Positions 6,363-57,910 of a stretch of 64,000 nucleotides of DNA are shown one piece after another. How positions within the stretch are numbered: the first letter of the stretch is position 1; the number at the start of each line of letters is the position of its first letter. The stretch covers positions 6,040,001 to 6,104,000 of the forward strand of contig NC_019738.1 of NCBI RefSeq assembly GCF_000317515.1, given 5' to 3'. The translations under genes and the position numbers were made by a program. The DNA is from Allocoleopsis franciscana PCC 7113 (GTDB lineage: Bacteria > Cyanobacteriota > Cyanobacteriia > Cyanobacteriales > Coleofasciculaceae). The notes under the pieces are model-generated. The model did no database searches and had not been told where the DNA came from. It was given only the letters and a program-made list of their open reading frames with translations.

Positions 6363-9300
6363 ATGCATCTTCAGAAAATTGGTCTATTGCTTGTCCCTGT
6401 GTTTGCCTTCGGTGTTTCAACCTCTGTGCCTGTCAATTTGCCAGCATTATTAACGACACCAAAGGCTGTAGCACAAGCCCCCAATGACCCAAAATTAAAC
6501 CAAAATCCTGCCACTAAACCTTCTGCTTCAGGCAGCTTTATTGATTACTTCGCACAGGAAACTCAACTCAAAGGGCATGAAGGGAGTGTCAACAGCGCGA
6601 GTTTTAGCCCGGATGGCAAGTTGATTGTCACGGCAGGAACTGATGGTACTGCCCGTGTGTGGGATATTTCCGGCAAGCAAGTAGGGGAATTGCGAGGACA
6701 TTCGGCGAGTGTCAGGAGTGCCAGTTTTAGTCCCGATGGACAGCGCATTGTCACGGCATCCTTTGACGGGACTGCCCGCGTGTGGGATTTGTCAGGCAAA
6801 CAGTTAGTGGAACTGACTGGGTATCAGGGTAATGTTTATAGTGCCAGTTTTAGTCCGGATGGAGGGCAGATTGTTACCGCAGGTGCTGATAAAACGGTTC
6901 GCGTGTGGGATGCTTCGGGCAAGCTTTTGGTGGAAATCAAAGGACATTCAGGTAGTGTCTACAGTGCGAGTTTTAGTCCTGATGGCAAGCGAATAGTTAC
7001 GGCATCTGCTGATAAAACCGCCCGTGTCTGGGATTTATCTGGCAAGCCGTTGGCGGAACTTACTGGGCATACTGATACCGTTTGGAGTGCCAGCTTTAGT
7101 CCGGATGGACAGTGGATTGTTACGGCATCGGATGATAAAACTGCCCGTATCTGGGATTTGTCTGGTAAGCCGTTAGCGGAACTGAAAGGGCATAAGGATA
7201 GTGTACTGAATGCTAGTTTTAGCGCGGATGGAAAGCGGATTGTTACCGCATCTGTTGATAAAACTGCCCTGATTTGGGATTCTCAAGGGGAATGGGTAGG
7301 TAAGCTTGAAGGGCATGAAGGCGGTGTTAACAGTGCAAGTTTTAGCGCTAATGAAAAGTGGATTGTCACCGCGTCTAATGATGGCACTGCCCGTGTATGG
7401 GATACAGAAAGTAAGTTATTTACTGAACTGCAAGGGCATAATGAGGACGTCAACAGTGCGAGTTTTAGCCTGGATGGGCAAATGGTTGTAACATCCAGTG
7501 GCACTACCCGTATATGGGACTTATCCGGCAAGCGGATAGTCGAACTCAAAGGGTATGCGGGTCGTGTGTACCTTGGAAGTTTTAGCCCGGATAGACAGCT
7601 AATAGTCGCTGTATCTGATGACAAAACTGCCCGTGTGTGGGACTTATCCGGCAAGTTGCTAGCAGAACTGAAAGGGCATCAGGATGAGGTAACAAGTGTC
7701 AGTTTTAGTCCCGATGGGAAGCGCATTCTCACTACATCCAAGGACAAAACTGGTCGAATTTGGGATACTTCTGGAAAGCTGTTAGTCGAGCTAAAAGGAC
7801 ATCAGGGCGAAGTCACTAGTGCCAGTTTTAGCCCGAATGGAAAGCTAATTGTCACTGCATCCTATGATACAACTGCCCGACTATGGGATTCTTCTGGTCA
7901 ACAGCTAGCTATTCTGGCACACCATAACATAGTCACTAGCGCCAATTTTAGTCTAGATGGAAAGCTAATTGTCACTGCATCAGGTGACAAAACTGCCCGT
8001 GTCTGGAATTTGTCTGGCAAACTGCTAGTAGAACTTCAAGGGCACTCTGATATGGTCAACAGTGCCAATTTTAGTCTAGATGGAAAGCGGATTGTCACTG
8101 CATCAGGTGACAAAACTGCCCGTGTCTGGGATTTGTCTGGTAAGCTGCTAGTCGAGCTAAAAGGGCATGAACTAATGGTCAACAGCGCCAGTTTTAGCCC
8201 CGATGGAAAGCATATTGTCACCACATCCAATGACGCAACAGCCCGCGTGTGGGATATTTCTGGCAAACTACTGGCTGTTTTAGAACATAAAGGCTCTGTC
8301 TTTAGTGCCAGTTTTAGCCCCGATGGACAGCGCATTGTTACCGCATCCATTGACGTATCAGCCCGTGTTTGGGATATTTCTGGCAAATTGCTAGACTCAC
8401 CTCGCTTGTCTGAAACCCCTTCTTCTGATGAAACCCTTAGTCCCCCATCTTCTTCTAATAAGGTTGACTCTAGCCCAGATCAGCCACTGGACATTACTGT
8501 CTTTAGTGCCAGGTTTAGCCCCGACGGACAGCGCATTGTTACCGCATCTAATGACAAAACCGCCCGTGTATGGGATAGTTCTGGCAAACTGCTAGCTGTT
8601 TTAAAACATGATGTCGGTGTCACCAGCGCTAGCTTTAGTCCAGATGGGCAGCGCATTGTCACCATGTCCTTCGATGATGCTCGTCTGTGGGATGCTTCTG
8701 GTAAATTGCTAGCTAAACTTACATGGGAATGGGATCGGCAAGAATTGCGATCGCAAACAGAGAGCGCCAGTTTTAGTCCAGATGGAAAGTTAATTGTCAC
8801 TGCCTCTCTGGAAAACGTCATTTTGTGGGATAGTTCGGGTAAGAGGCTCGTTGAGCTAAAAGGGCATAATGACTGGGTCTACAATGCGAGTTTTAGCCCC
8901 GATGGGAAGCGTATTATCACCGCCTCTTCGGATCGTACAGCTAATATCTGGGATACTTCGGGCAACTTACTGGCAGAACTTAGAGGGCATAAGGGCTATG
9001 TCACTAGTGGCAGTTTTAGTCCGGATGGAAAGCTAATTGTCACCGCATCCTCAGACAACACAGCCCGTGTGTGGGATACTTCCGGGAAGCTGCTAGCCGA
9101 GCTAAAAGGACATCAGGGCAAAGTCAATAGTGCCAGTTTTAGCCCGAACGGAAAGCGTATTGTCACCGCCTCCTCGGATCGTACAGTCCGTATCTGGGAT
9201 ACTTCGGGCAAGCTAATAGCAGAACTCGGAGGGCATTTCGGTGAAGTCAGTAGTGCCAGTTTTAGCCCGGATGGGCAACGTATTGTCGCCAACTCATATT

Positions 9301-11681
9301 TAGCCAGTATATGGGATACTTCGGGCAAGCTGCTAGTCGAACTAAGGGGTCATCGGAGTGCTGCCTTCAGTGCCAGTTTTAGTCCAGACGGACAGCGAAT
9401 TGTTACTGCATCTGATGATGGAACGGCTCGTGTATGGGACACCAATGGCAAATTGCTATCCACTTTAGAGTTAGCTGAACCCCCTTCTTCACCAAAAGCA
9501 GAAGCTGACAGACTGGCGAAGCAGGAATTTCCACCACCAAATTGTGCCCAAGCATTTGAACCCTGGCAAAAAGCACTCAAAATCTATCAAGAAATTGGCG
9601 ATCGCGAAAGTGAGGCTAATATTCTGGAGAAACTAGGAAACGCTTACTATTGTCTGAGTGATTATACTAATGCCATAAATTCTTACTCCCTAGCTTTAAC
9701 CATAGCCCAGAAATTTAACTACCCACAAATCCAAGCTCAAAATCTCTCCAATCTAGGGAATATCTATAACTCCTTAGCCAATTATGACAAAGCCATCGAT
9801 TCTTACAATCAAGCCTTAAAAATACTTCAGCAGCAGAAAGATTCCCAACTCAAAGCAGAGATTTTTCGTCGTCGTGGAGCTAGTAAAAACTATCAAGGCA
9901 AATCTAACGAAGCCATTAATGACTACTTACAAGCCTTAGTCATTGACAAAGCCGTTAAAAATTACTTTGGCGTAGCAATAGACCAACTATATTTAGCCAA
10001 TATTTATCATTCATTGGGTGACTACAACAAAGCAATTCAATATTACAAAGAAGCATTAGCCTTTAGTCGTAGTGAAGCACTTGGAGGTTTGGGAAATGTT
10101 TATCTGTCCCTTGGGGATAGCGATAAGGCAATTGATTTACATCGGCAGAGCTTAATTGTAGCACAGCAAAAAAAAGACCACGAAGGTGAAGCCAATGCTT
10201 TAAACAATCTAGCTAATGCTCTGCGTCAAGCTGGCAATCTCCCAGAAGCCGAACAACACCTACGCAGAGCCATTGAAATTTGGGAAAATCTGCGAACTAA
10301 ATTGGATGATGCCAATAAAGTATCCATCTTTGAAAAGCAAGGTCGGACTTACCGCTTACTACAAGAAGTTTTGATTGCTCAGAATAAACCTAATGAAGCC
10401 CTAGAAATTGCCGAACGAGGAAGGGCGCGTGCTTTTGTGGAATTACTCGCCAAGCGAATATCCCCTAACCAAAACGAGCAACCTAGTATTACTCCACCTA
10501 ATATCGAAAAGATTAAACAAATTGCCAAAGAACAAAACGCGACTCTCGTTGAATATTCGATTATTACCCATACATTCAACGTTCAAGGGAAAGAACAAAC
10601 CAAAGAATCAGAACTCTACATTTGGGTCATCAAACCCACAGGAGAAATAACCTTTCGTCGCAGCGACCTAAAACCCCTGTGGCAGAAAGAGAATACAACG
10701 CTTGTAGATTTAGTTACTAGCAGTCGTGATGCTATAGGTGTCAGAGGTCTTGGTGTTACTCCATGGATCGATGCACCGAAAGTACAAGACCAATTAAAGC
10801 GTTTGCATGAATTATTAGTCAAACCTATTTCTGACTTATTGCCCACACAAGAGAGCGACAAAGTAATTTTCATCCCGCAAAGTTCGTTGTTCCTCGTTCC
10901 TTTCCCAGCTTTGCAAGATGAAAGTGGCAAATACCTAATAGAAAACCACACTATCCTTACCGCACCATCAATTCAGGTTTTAGAACTTACACGCCAGCAA
11001 CGCCAACAAGTAGCAACGCGAGGCAACAATGCGCTAGTCGTGGGTAATCCGACGATGCCCAAGGTTGCGCCTGCAATTGGGGAACCACCGCAACAATTAG
11101 CACCCTTACCCGGTGCAGAAGCAGAAGCAAAAGCGATCGCACCTCTATTAAACACCCAACCACTAATCGGTAATCAAGCGACAGAAACTGCGATTTTACC
11201 ATTACTGCCCAAAGCCCGAATTATCCATCTAGCAACCCATGGAATACTCGATGATATCCAAGGATTAAAAAGTGCTATTGCCCTTGCCCCTTCATCTATG
11301 ACACCCCCCCTTACCAAGGGGGGGACAGGGGGGGTAGAGGAGAGTGATGGATTACTCACTGCAGAAGAACTCCTCAACCTCAAACTCAATGCAGAATTAG
11401 TCGTGTTGAGTGCTTGCGACACGGGACGAGGCAAAATTACAGGGGATGGCGTGATTGGCTTATCGCGTTCCTTTATTAGTGCAGGTGTCCCCAGCGTAAT
11501 CGTCTCATTGTGGTCGGTTCCCGATGCACCAACAGCATTTTTAATGACGGAATTTTACCAAAATCTCCAGAAAAACCCCGATAAAGCCCAAGCCTTGCGA
11601 CAAGCCATGCTGACTACCCTCAAGCAACACCCTGACCCCAGAGATTGGGCGGCTTTTACTCTGATTGGTGAGGCTCAGTAG
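6363..11681 (+). CDS. Giant WD40-TPR-CHAT protein
   Basis: The protein is 1772 aa from the ATG at 6363; an in-frame TTG at 6354 is possible. After a hydrophobic N-terminal segment ending near AVAQA (about 1-37, a likely Sec signal), about 23 WD40 repeats (residues 65-1035) each carry SASFSPDGK...ARVWD.SGK. This is enough for three seven- or eight-bladed propellers. TPR repeats (about 1065-1325) and a C-terminal CHAT caspase-fold domain (about 1370-1772) follow. The CHAT dyad is visible: His1626 in HLATHG and Cys1685 in LSACDTG, so the protease is probably active. The WD40 and TPR parts are usually sensor or scaffold modules in this class. The substrate is unknown. A GC-rich repeat at 11304-11334 is read in frame inside the CHAT domain. 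Location is uncertain: the signal-like N-terminus suggests export, but CHAT proteases often act in the cytoplasm. Confidence 0.9.
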   Translation: MHLQKIGLLLVPVFAFGVSTSVPVNLPALLTTPKAVAQAPNDPKLNQNPATKPSASGSFIDYFAQETQLKGHEGSVNSASFSPDGKLIVTAGTDGTARVWDISGKQVGELRGHSASVRSASFSPDGQRIVTASFDGTARVWDLSGKQLVELTGYQGNVYSASFSPDGGQIVTAGADKTVRVWDASGKLLVEIKGHSGSVYSASFSPDGKRIVTASADKTARVWDLSGKPLAELTGHTDTVWSASFSPDGQWIVTASDDKTARIWDLSGKPLAELKGHKDSVLNASFSADGKRIVTASVDKTALIWDSQGEWVGKLEGHEGGVNSASFSANEKWIVTASNDGTARVWDTESKLFTELQGHNEDVNSASFSLDGQMVVTSSGTTRIWDLSGKRIVELKGYAGRVYLGSFSPDRQLIVAVSDDKTARVWDLSGKLLAELKGHQDEVTSVSFSPDGKRILTTSKDKTGRIWDTSGKLLVELKGHQGEVTSASFSPNGKLIVTASYDTTARLWDSSGQQLAILAHHNIVTSANFSLDGKLIVTASGDKTARVWNLSGKLLVELQGHSDMVNSANFSLDGKRIVTASGDKTARVWDLSGKLLVELKGHELMVNSASFSPDGKHIVTTSNDATARVWDISGKLLAVLEHKGSVFSASFSPDGQRIVTASIDVSARVWDISGKLLDSPRLSETPSSDETLSPPSSSNKVDSSPDQPLDITVFSARFSPDGQRIVTASNDKTARVWDSSGKLLAVLKHDVGVTSASFSPDGQRIVTMSFDDARLWDASGKLLAKLTWEWDRQELRSQTESASFSPDGKLIVTASLENVILWDSSGKRLVELKGHNDWVYNASFSPDGKRIITASSDRTANIWDTSGNLLAELRGHKGYVTSGSFSPDGKLIVTASSDNTARVWDTSGKLLAELKGHQGKVNSASFSPNGKRIVTASSDRTVRIWDTSGKLIAELGGHFGEVSSASFSPDGQRIVANSYLASIWDTSGKLLVELRGHRSAAFSASFSPDGQRIVTASDDGTARVWDTNGKLLSTLELAEPPSSPKAEADRLAKQEFPPPNCAQAFEPWQKALKIYQEIGDRESEANILEKLGNAYYCLSDYTNAINSYSLALTIAQKFNYPQIQAQNLSNLGNIYNSLANYDKAIDSYNQALKILQQQKDSQLKAEIFRRRGASKNYQGKSNEAINDYLQALVIDKAVKNYFGVAIDQLYLANIYHSLGDYNKAIQYYKEALAFSRSEALGGLGNVYLSLGDSDKAIDLHRQSLIVAQQKKDHEGEANALNNLANALRQAGNLPEAEQHLRRAIEIWENLRTKLDDANKVSIFEKQGRTYRLLQEVLIAQNKPNEALEIAERGRARAFVELLAKRISPNQNEQPSITPPNIEKIKQIAKEQNATLVEYSIITHTFNVQGKEQTKESELYIWVIKPTGEITFRRSDLKPLWQKENTTLVDLVTSSRDAIGVRGLGVTPWIDAPKVQDQLKRLHELLVKPISDLLPTQESDKVIFIPQSSLFLVPFPALQDESGKYLIENHTILTAPSIQVLELTRQQRQQVATRGNNALVVGNPTMPKVAPAIGEPPQQLAPLPGAEAEAKAIAPLLNTQPLIGNQATETAILPLLPKARIIHLATHGILDDIQGLKSAIALAPSSMTPPLTKGGTGGVEESDGLLTAEELLNLKLNAELVVLSACDTGRGKITGDGVIGLSRSFISAGVPSVIVSLWSVPDAPTAFLMTEFYQNLQKNPDKAQALRQAMLTTLKQHPDPRDWAAFTLIGEAQ
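11304..11334. repeat. GC-rich palindromic repeat inside the CHAT coding region
   Basis: Seven C and CTT-type stem sequence (11304-11312) pair with AAGGGGGGG (11316-11324). Another run of seven G follows at 11328-11334. It is translated in frame as PPLTKGGTGGV, between two conserved blocks of the CHAT domain. Similar CCCCC-loop-GGGGG repeats are common interspersed sequences in large cyanobacterial genomes. Confidence 0.7.
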
Positions 11682-39086: not shown

Positions 39087-39131
39087 ACCGGAGCTCATAC
39101 GAGGGCAGAAGGCAGAAGGCAGAAGGCAGAA
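39087..39131. repeat. Dispersed 18-mer followed by GGCAGAA heptamer repeats
   Basis: ACCGGAGCTCATACGAGG (39087-39104) recurs exactly, inverted, at 62752-62769. Four tandem GGCAGAA units follow (39104-39131), with a partial fifth. Similar GGCAG-type units occur near 21751, 36380 and 59893. Confidence 0.65.
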
Positions 39132-39349
39132 GGCAGCAGTAAAGCTGAGCGAAAACGACTTCGGATGCAACGCATCTCGAACAAAGCCAGTGAGGGCAAG
39201 GATTTTTGTCTGGGTGTGACTTCCCGAAGACGCGATCGCGCCAAAAAATTTTCAGCCGCTTGTTCCTCGATTGAATTTTTTGGGAACTCTACTTTTGAGG
39301 CTGCATTGAGCCGTCACCCAAAAAATCTTACGCAAGGAAGTAAGCCTAA

Positions 39350-55338: not shown

Positions 55339-55818
55339 TTAGTACGGGGTGCCGTCTTTGTGAGCAAATTTCCACAAGCCATTCTCCAGCAGGGCTTTGA
55401 GGTCATCATCGGGATAGCTTCCTTCATCTCCCGGTGTTCTGTCCCCGATTTCGAGGTACAGGACATCCTCCTCTGTTTCGTTGATCAGATGGTGTCCGTT
55501 GCCAGTGCCAGCCTTGAAGCCCGCACACATGCCCGGAGAGAGTTGTGTACGACCTTCATCCGTGTGTAGGGTTGGATGCCCCTGCAAGATGTAGATGAAC
55601 TCATCTTGTTTGGTGTGGGCGTGACGCAGGGCGGAAACCCCGTTGGGAGACAATCGTGTGAGGTTGACGCCAAAGTTCGTGAGGCCAAACAGGTCACCAA
55701 GTGGGCGCTTTTCTCTGCCCACCATGCGCGACGCGAATGGTTCAGGATAGTTCGAGGGCTTGGTTCTTGGCGGTGCGTCCGAGGCATTGATGGCGATCGA
55801 TATTGCTTTTTCTGACAT
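55339..55818 (-). CDS. Cupin-domain protein
   Basis: The product is 159 aa with a single cupin fold: metal-binding motif 1 is ALRHAHTKQDEFIYILQGHPTLHTDEG (two His, one Glu) and motif 2 is the later GNGHHLINETEEDVLYLEIGDR. Cupins of this size include dioxygenases and storage- or sugar-binding proteins. Function unknown. Convergent with the ABC transporter gene. Confidence 0.85.
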   Translation of the reverse strand: MSEKAISIAINASDAPPRTKPSNYPEPFASRMVGREKRPLGDLFGLTNFGVNLTRLSPNGVSALRHAHTKQDEFIYILQGHPTLHTDEGRTQLSPGMCAGFKAGTGNGHHLINETEEDVLYLEIGDRTPGDEGSYPDDDLKALLENGLWKFAHKDGTPY

Positions 55819-55900: not shown

Positions 55901-56566
55901 TTACCACGGCAGCACTTCTCCATTAGCGTGCCAAAAAGTCCCTGTATTCTCCAGCGTCAACTCATCAATCCGCTTCAACAACCCCTGCACCGACTCCTCC
56001 GGCGTAATACCACCCGATGTAAAATTCGTCATGCGGGTTTGAACTAACCCAGGATGCAGAATTGCCACGGCAATCTCACGGGGTTTGAGATCGAGGGATA
56101 GCGACTTCCCTGCCATCGACAACGCCACTTTAGACATCCGGTAGCCATAAGAACTGCCAGAGGTATTATCTGCAATTGAACCCATCCGACTCGTCATCAG
56201 CGCAATCTTGGAACCCGCTTTCAGGTTGGGAAGCAGTGCATGAGTTACCCGCAAGGCACCGAGAGTATTAACCTCAAACTGTTCTCGAATACTGTCAAAA
56301 TTCAAGTCTTCCAGCGTGACGCGCTTTACTATTCCAGCATTATTAATTAGGACATCGATCGCACTATCACCCAAGCGATCGCATAAATCTGCAACCGAAG
56401 CATCCGAGGTAATATCAATCCCCTCCTCAACCCGCACTCCTAACTGCTTCAATTCCTCAGAAGCAGTGCGACAAACTGCAATTACCGTATCTCCCCGTTC
56501 TTTGAGTTGACGGCAGTATTCGTAACCAATCCCGCGATTTGTCCCTGTAATCAGATAAGTTGCCAT
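55901..56566 (-). CDS. SDR-family oxidoreductase
   Basis: The product is 221 aa, a short-chain dehydrogenase/reductase. Cofactor motif TGTNRGIGYEY, NNAG block LINNAGIV, then the active-site SSYGYRMSKVALS (Tyr/Lys of YxxxK). Substrate unknown. A 62-bp exact tandem duplication covers the start codon, giving a 20-codon upstream reading frame that ends in TGATG at this gene's ATG. Cytoplasmic. Confidence 0.9.
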   Translation of the reverse strand: MATYLITGTNRGIGYEYCRQLKERGDTVIAVCRTASEELKQLGVRVEEGIDITSDASVADLCDRLGDSAIDVLINNAGIVKRVTLEDLNFDSIREQFEVNTLGALRVTHALLPNLKAGSKIALMTSRMGSIADNTSGSSYGYRMSKVALSMAGKSLSLDLKPREIAVAILHPGLVQTRMTNFTSGGITPEESVQGLLKRIDELTLENTGTFWHANGEVLPW

Positions 56567-56642
56567 CAGATTGCCTCAGTTTCGTAACCAATCCCGCGAT
56601 TTGTCCCTGTAATCAGATAAGTTGCCATCAGATTGCCTCAGT
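56519..56642. repeat. Exact tandem duplication of 62 bp over the SDR start
   Basis: 56519-56580 and 56581-56642 are identical. The minus-strand ATG at 56566 is therefore repeated at 56628. From that copy a frame of MATYLITGTNRGIGYETEAI runs to TGA, which overlaps the true ATG by one base. Confidence 0.9.
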
Positions 56643-56734
56643 TCCGTATTCGATTTCTTTGGGTACTTTATCAATTTTTCCTGATGCAGCCATAACGATG
56701 ACGGATAAAGGAAAAGTAGATGCACCCTGATACT

Positions 56735-56758
56735 ACCCCCAGCGTTCGCGTTGGGGGT
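56735..56758 (+). terminator. Strong hairpin with TTCG loop
   Basis: ACCCCCAGCG (56735-56744), loop TTCG, CGTTGGGGGT (56749-56758), then TTTCTTATT. This looks like a rho-independent terminator read on the + strand. The nearby THUMP gene ends at 56786 on the minus strand and the SDR starts at 56566 on the minus strand, so no + gene precedes it. It may still serve the minus-strand transcript. Confidence 0.7.
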
Positions 56759-56785
56759 TTCTTATTGAAGCTGCAAAAAGCTGAA

Positions 56786-57910
56786 TTAATACATTTCGTA
56801 TTTCAACAAAGTGCAGGGTATGGAACCGTTATAAACAGGAATACGACGAGCCGCTTTCAATCCTACCCGCTTTGCCAATTCCTTATTTCCCGTTAAAACA
56901 AACGCTGTCCAACCTTTAAAACGTTGCTTGAAAACATCACCCAATAACTTATAAAAATCACCGAGTTCTGCCGCATCTCCCAGGCGTTCTCCATAGGGCG
57001 GATTGCAAATAATCACACCACTATCGGCTGGCGCTTCTATGTCTTTGAGGTCAGTTTGAGTAAACTTCACCTGGTCTGAAATACGACATTGTCGTGCATT
57101 AATTCGAGCTTGATCGAGAATATCAGGGTCTTTATCGCTCCCTATAATTGGTGCTTTGAGTTGAGGAATTTGACTTTCTTCCGCCTCATCCAGCAACCGC
57201 GTCCAAAGTTGTTCGTCAAAATCATGCCATTTCTCAAAAGCAAACTCAGGACGAAACAATCCGGGGGCAATATTTAAAGCTTTTAAACTGGCTTCTAACG
57301 GTAACGTTCCAGAACCACACAATGGGTCTAAAAATGGCAAATTTGGCTCCCATTCAGCCATATCTAAAAGTGCGGCGGCTAAGGTTTCTTTCAGAGGTGC
57401 AAGTCCCATTGCCGGACGATACCCCCGGCGATGTAAACTAGCACCGGAACTATCTAAACTTAAAATACAACGGTCTTGATAGATATGGACGTTAATCAGT
57501 AAATCAGGATTTTCGGTATCAACGCTAGACCGTTGACCAAATTGGTGACGTTGTTGGTCGATAATTGCATTTTTAACTTGTAAAGCCGTGAAGTGGGTGT
57601 GATTCAGTTGGCGATTGCCTCCTGTGGCATTCACAGCTAAAGTGTTGTGAGGCTGGATGTATTGCTGCCAATTGATTTTTTGCACCTCTGTGTAAAGGCG
57701 AGCGGCATTGGAACAGGGGAATTCTCGCAGGGTAACGAGTACCCGAAAAACAGTTCTCGCCCAGAGGTTTACTTGGTAGAGTAAGGTGCGATCTCCGCTA
57801 AAATGTACCCCAGTAAAATCAGGACGAACCTCTTTTGCACCCAAGCGTTCCAATTCTTGGGCAGTAATTGACTCTAAGCCACGAGCAACTGTAGCAAAAT
57901 ATTGGCTCAT
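56786..57910 (-). CDS. THUMP-domain RNA methyltransferase (RlmL/RlmK N-terminal type)
   Basis: The product is 374 aa. An N-terminal THUMP domain (about residues 40-150) is followed by a Rossmann methyltransferase of the UPF0020 type. Motifs: DPLCGSGTLPLEASL (SAM binding), IGSDKDPDILDQARINA, and IICNPPYGERLG (catalytic NPPY). The family methylates guanosine in 23S rRNA (RlmL) or related RNAs. Cytoplasmic. Full length for the single-domain group; the RlmK half of the E. coli fusion is absent. Confidence 0.93.
   Translation of the reverse strand: MSQYFATVARGLESITAQELERLGAKEVRPDFTGVHFSGDRTLLYQVNLWARTVFRVLVTLREFPCSNAARLYTEVQKINWQQYIQPHNTLAVNATGGNRQLNHTHFTALQVKNAIIDQQRHQFGQRSSVDTENPDLLINVHIYQDRCILSLDSSGASLHRRGYRPAMGLAPLKETLAAALLDMAEWEPNLPFLDPLCGSGTLPLEASLKALNIAPGLFRPEFAFEKWHDFDEQLWTRLLDEAEESQIPQLKAPIIGSDKDPDILDQARINARQCRISDQVKFTQTDLKDIEAPADSGVIICNPPYGERLGDAAELGDFYKLLGDVFKQRFKGWTAFVLTGNKELAKRVGLKAARRIPVYNGSIPCTLLKYEMY

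Follow-up and report, generated by a model that had tools for sequence, protein, structure and literature searches.

A 62-bp tandem duplication copies the start of a cyanobacterial SDR gene and creates an upstream reading frame overlapping it at TGATG

INTRODUCTION

Termination followed by reinitiation at the sequence TGATG is a well-documented mechanism of bacterial translation (PMC6728339). Tandem duplications that alter how the start of a gene is read are known from Staphylococcus aureus, in which the duplications that activate sigH have a 1.2-kb unit with an 8-bp flanking repeat, give rise to a chimeric protein and were found by selection (PMC3486894). Here we describe a locus that combines elements of these systems, located in a 64-kb window (the whole stretch of DNA analyzed) of a cyanobacterial genome. 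The reading that we favor, with a probability of about 0.7, is that the locus carries a recent, lineage-private and otherwise ordinary 62-bp tandem duplication which copied the start region of an SDR gene and whose net effect is neutral or small.

RESULTS

Positions 56519-56580 and 56581-56642 of the window are identical 62-nt direct repeats, placed head-to-tail with a start-to-start spacing of 62. A preliminary description of this DNA had reported a 62-bp tandem duplication here, and both its coordinates and its description proved right. An exact repeat of a 62-mer is far above the chance expectation, and identical copies that adjoin in direct orientation are what is expected of a recent short tandem duplication. 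Read on the minus strand, the unit is ACTGAGGCAATCTG-ATG-GCAACTTATCTG...GGTTACGAA, which comprises an SD-like GAGG, a 7-nt spacer, an ATG and the first 16 codons of the SDR gene. The gene-proximal copy (56519..56580) keeps the original reading context and holds 14 nt of the SDR 5' UTR, including the SD, followed by a total of 16 codons beginning with the ATG; the upstream copy (56581..56642) is 100% identical to it. Each start is thus preceded at 7 nt by its own GAGG, at 56574..56577 for the real SDR start, where it is identical in the sister genome, and at 56636..56639 for the leader ATG at 56628.

Among exact two-copy tandem repeats with units of 25 to 600 bp, the duplication was the only one in the window. 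Elsewhere in the genome, an 800-kb sample, about 80 kb of which was masked, contained one more such repeat (120-bp unit) in its approximately 720 kb of unmasked sequence. Exact short tandem duplications are uncommon in this genome, though neither singular nor unique to this site. A mobile-element origin of the duplicated segment was considered and rejected, with no other copy in the genome and no phage match; one plasmid match was obtained, and it covers part of the SDR coding sequence. Repetitive sequence of other kinds also occurs in the window: the perfect heptamer GGCAGAA is tandemly repeated 4.7 times at 39104-39136, outside ORFs of at least 60 aa, and at 6565-9353 there is a long array of 123-bp units, a type of array that codes for WD40-type repeats in proteins.

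The gene whose start was copied encodes an intact SDR family oxidoreductase of 221 aa (55901..56566, minus strand; PF00106), for which the closest NCBIfam model is NF049951, with a score under its cut-off. Nearly all of its named close homologues are cyanobacterial. Compared to the sister genome, dN was 0.043 and dS 0.353 (dN/dS of about 0.12), and the coding sequences indicate that the gene is under purifying selection. In minus-strand gene order, an RlmL-like THUMP methyltransferase gene (56786-57910) comes first, followed by the SDR gene and then by a cupin protein gene (55339-55818). No sigma-70-like promoters were found in 56500-56850.

The duplication gives rise to a leader ORF on the minus strand (56566..56628), which encodes the 20 residues MATYLITGTNRGIGYETEAI followed by a stop. 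Minus-strand translation of 56628..56566 gives MATYLITGTNRGIGYE-TEAI, in which residues 1-16 equal the SDR N-terminus, and the A of the leader TGA doubles as the first base of the SDR ATG (56566), giving TGATG. The 20-residue upstream ORF, its 16 shared residues and its TGATG end had been described beforehand, and the translation bore out each of them. When unit lengths of 61, 62 and 63 nt were compared, TGATG resulted only with 62 nt (2 mod 3). The sister also has a TG directly before the SDR ATG, as do 3 of 81 other homologues whose ATG was located. Because this TG-ATG context pre-existed and is common to the sister, a unit of suitable length was all that TGATG required. The overlap, neat as it looks, is the mechanical outcome of a 62-nt unit and had a 1-in-3 chance of arising.

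The anatomy of the leader fits a translational-coupling device, in which ribosomes would load upstream, stop at the TGA and reinitiate at the overlapping ATG, with the result that SDR translation would be boosted or buffered in the manner of bicistronic designs. The leader has an SD, 20 codons and a stop that overlaps the downstream start; bacteria are known to couple genes through ATGA and TGATG overlaps (PMC6728339), and engineered bicistronic designs with short leaders increase expression (PMC5995908). Against this, the 62-nt duplication yields the architecture automatically, and fewer than 10% of cyanobacterial gene pairs overlap (PMC6728339). The downstream start, moreover, has its own GAGG and a predicted opening cost of 5.5-5.8 kcal/mol, versus 6.1-6.3 in the sister, and so it appears neither weak nor more occluded than the sister's. 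The leader is not conserved either, being absent from the sister and the homologues. We consider a coupling device unlikely.

The same start sites could instead act in the opposite direction, with the duplication lowering SDR output and the allele being mildly deleterious and transient. The first start reached by ribosomes has the same SD and context as the second and would compete for them, making the leader a decoy. However, because the leader stop sits on the next start, ribosomes would arrive at that start instead of passing over it. The SDR reading frame is undamaged, and opening the leader start is predicted to cost no less than opening the real one (5.8-8.2 versus 5.5-5.8 kcal/mol). A loss of output by this route therefore also seems improbable. 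With regard to RNA structure, a structured riboregulator in the leader was rejected, since only NsiR1 scored above its Rfam cut-off and the leader folded like shuffled sequence (z = -0.38). Pairing of NsiR1 to the duplicated start region was likewise rejected, its predicted energy being weaker than that of nearly all shuffles.

Positive support was consequently lacking for the proposal that the leader is possibly functional and that its translation may drive reinitiation at the SDR gene: the SDR start retains an SD of its own in a context predicted to be accessible, the leader lacks structure, and the allele is private, which is also why there is no comparative record of selection. Reinitiation at TGATG may occur here, though it is not needed, and regulation by the leader is possible but unsupported.

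A further minus-strand ORF, encoding MAASGKIDKVPKEIEYGTEAI followed by a stop (56628..56693), also ends in TGATG, at the leader ATG; it has no SD and stops five codons earlier in the sister. This ORF is probably not translated, because it lacks an SD and overlies the promoter of an NsiR1 copy on the opposite strand. The upstream ORF MAASGKIDKVPKEIE resembles an SGKI peptide found at a different NsiR1 locus, which suggested a conserved leader peptide. This reading was rejected, as the DNA common to the two consists of the TCC[G/T]GA promoter element, together with the flank, of the opposite-strand NsiR1 sRNA. It is conceivable that the duplication was adaptive, a one-step, self-copied and translationally coupled leader that retuned SDR output and was kept by selection, perhaps as a relay of two TGATG sites (56628 and 56566), but we regard this as very improbable.

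The age and origin of the duplication were assessed by comparison with relatives. In the sister, the one same-genus genome compared (SDR protein 92% identical), the start region is single-copy with near-identical flanks. The junction word GGTTACGAAACTGAGGCAATCTGATGG was absent, at up to 2 mismatches, from 19 other genomes of the family, and no second N-terminal motif occurred within 250 nt in any of the 83 homologous loci where the motif was found, a set in which a few genomes are represented twice. Because the sister is single-copy, the junction is absent from the 19 genomes and the 83 loci hold no second motif, these comparisons indicate that the duplication is a derived state confined to this genome. 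Genes around it have drifted from the sister by roughly 5-10%. The two copies are identical and the duplication is absent from the sister and every homologue checked, which together with this drift supports the earlier claim that it is recent.

Within 56511-56710, the sequence differs from the sister at 3 of 138 non-duplicated sites, and all three differences (56645, 56647 and 56648) sit at a distance of 3-6 bp from the duplication's outer edge. Under random placement, the chance that all three would lie within 6 bp is about 5e-5. This clustering suggests the scar of one complex event, e.g., a template switch, although with a single outgroup the substitutions may instead have arisen in the sister. 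The sequence shows about 1 bp of homology at the inner junction. Within 56511-56710, the intergenic region and the first 18 SDR codons nearly match the sister, compared to 89% identity over the remainder of the SDR gene; such a pattern would point either to a shared promoter region under constraint or to a boundary of recombination.

An isolate with only one copy, in which the second was introduced during assembly or finishing, would look alike as regards exact identity and absence from every relative. The genome is near-finished, however (7.97 Mb in 9 contigs, with a main contig of 7.47 Mb and a completeness of 100%), and the substitution cluster at the edge of the duplication suggests a real mutational event. 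Assemblers collapse short exact tandem repeats more often than they create them, which also counts against an artifact. We therefore consider an artifact doubtful.

Upstream of the SDR start, the nearest feature to the duplication is an NsiR1-family small RNA that carries an intrinsic terminator of its own (56714..56765, plus strand; RF02399, 45.4 bits versus a cut-off of 39). It lies between the SDR and methyltransferase genes, points away from the duplication, is unaltered by it and is syntenic in the sister genome. If the SDR gene is co-transcribed with the methyltransferase gene, this NsiR1 could be antisense to the SDR 5' leader. The genome has 22 NsiR1 matches, and the 15 copies with an exact 16-nt core fall into two non-overlapping promoter classes. 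In the first (8 copies), a GGGGT-N2-CACCCC palindrome precedes the core by 40-41 nt; in the second (7 copies, including the one in the window), TCC[G/T]GA precedes it by 34-37 nt. The palindrome resembles a HetR site. A hetR gene is present in the genome. In Nostoc, NsiR1 is HetR dependent and antisense to the hetF 5' UTR (PMC9045159), and an NsiR1-like RNA is known from the non-heterocystous Limnospira (PMC8400943). Compared to the duplication, the NsiR1 copy close by and the two classes of NsiR1 promoter are probably the better lead.

DISCUSSION

What is observed directly is that the start region is duplicated, that relatives lack the duplication, that the SDR gene is intact and that the SD and ATG are present twice. 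Under the favored reading of an ordinary duplication, the 62-bp unit would have been copied by replication slippage or template switching, with the approximately 1 bp of junction homology. The copied unit would bring its SD and ATG with it and so provide an mRNA with two equivalent start sites. Initiation at the first would yield a 20-codon by-product ending at the second, and the second, having kept its own SD, would still produce the complete enzyme through direct initiation, perhaps supplemented by reinitiation. The net effect would most likely be neutral or a slight change in expression. The locus is a natural example of how a short tandem duplication can produce an overlapping upstream ORF with the gene unharmed: the copied SD and ATG leave the downstream start usable, and the position of the stop is set by the unit length modulo 3. 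It would assume greater importance only if expression data showed control of the SDR gene by the leader.

Like the sigH-activating duplications of S. aureus (PMC3486894), the duplication described here is in tandem, has little junction homology and alters the reading of a gene start. Unlike them, it leaves the SDR protein unchanged, and no selection for it is known. With gene pairs coupled through TGATG or ATGA (PMC6728339), it shares a stop-start overlap of -1 nt and an SD in the upstream ORF; unlike in those pairs, the putative leader here duplicates the start of the very gene that follows it and is confined to one genome. Finally, the locus resembles the engineered bicistronic design (PMC5995908) in having a short first cistron before the target gene and an SD for each, whereas here the arrangement arose by chance and both cistrons have one identical initiation context.
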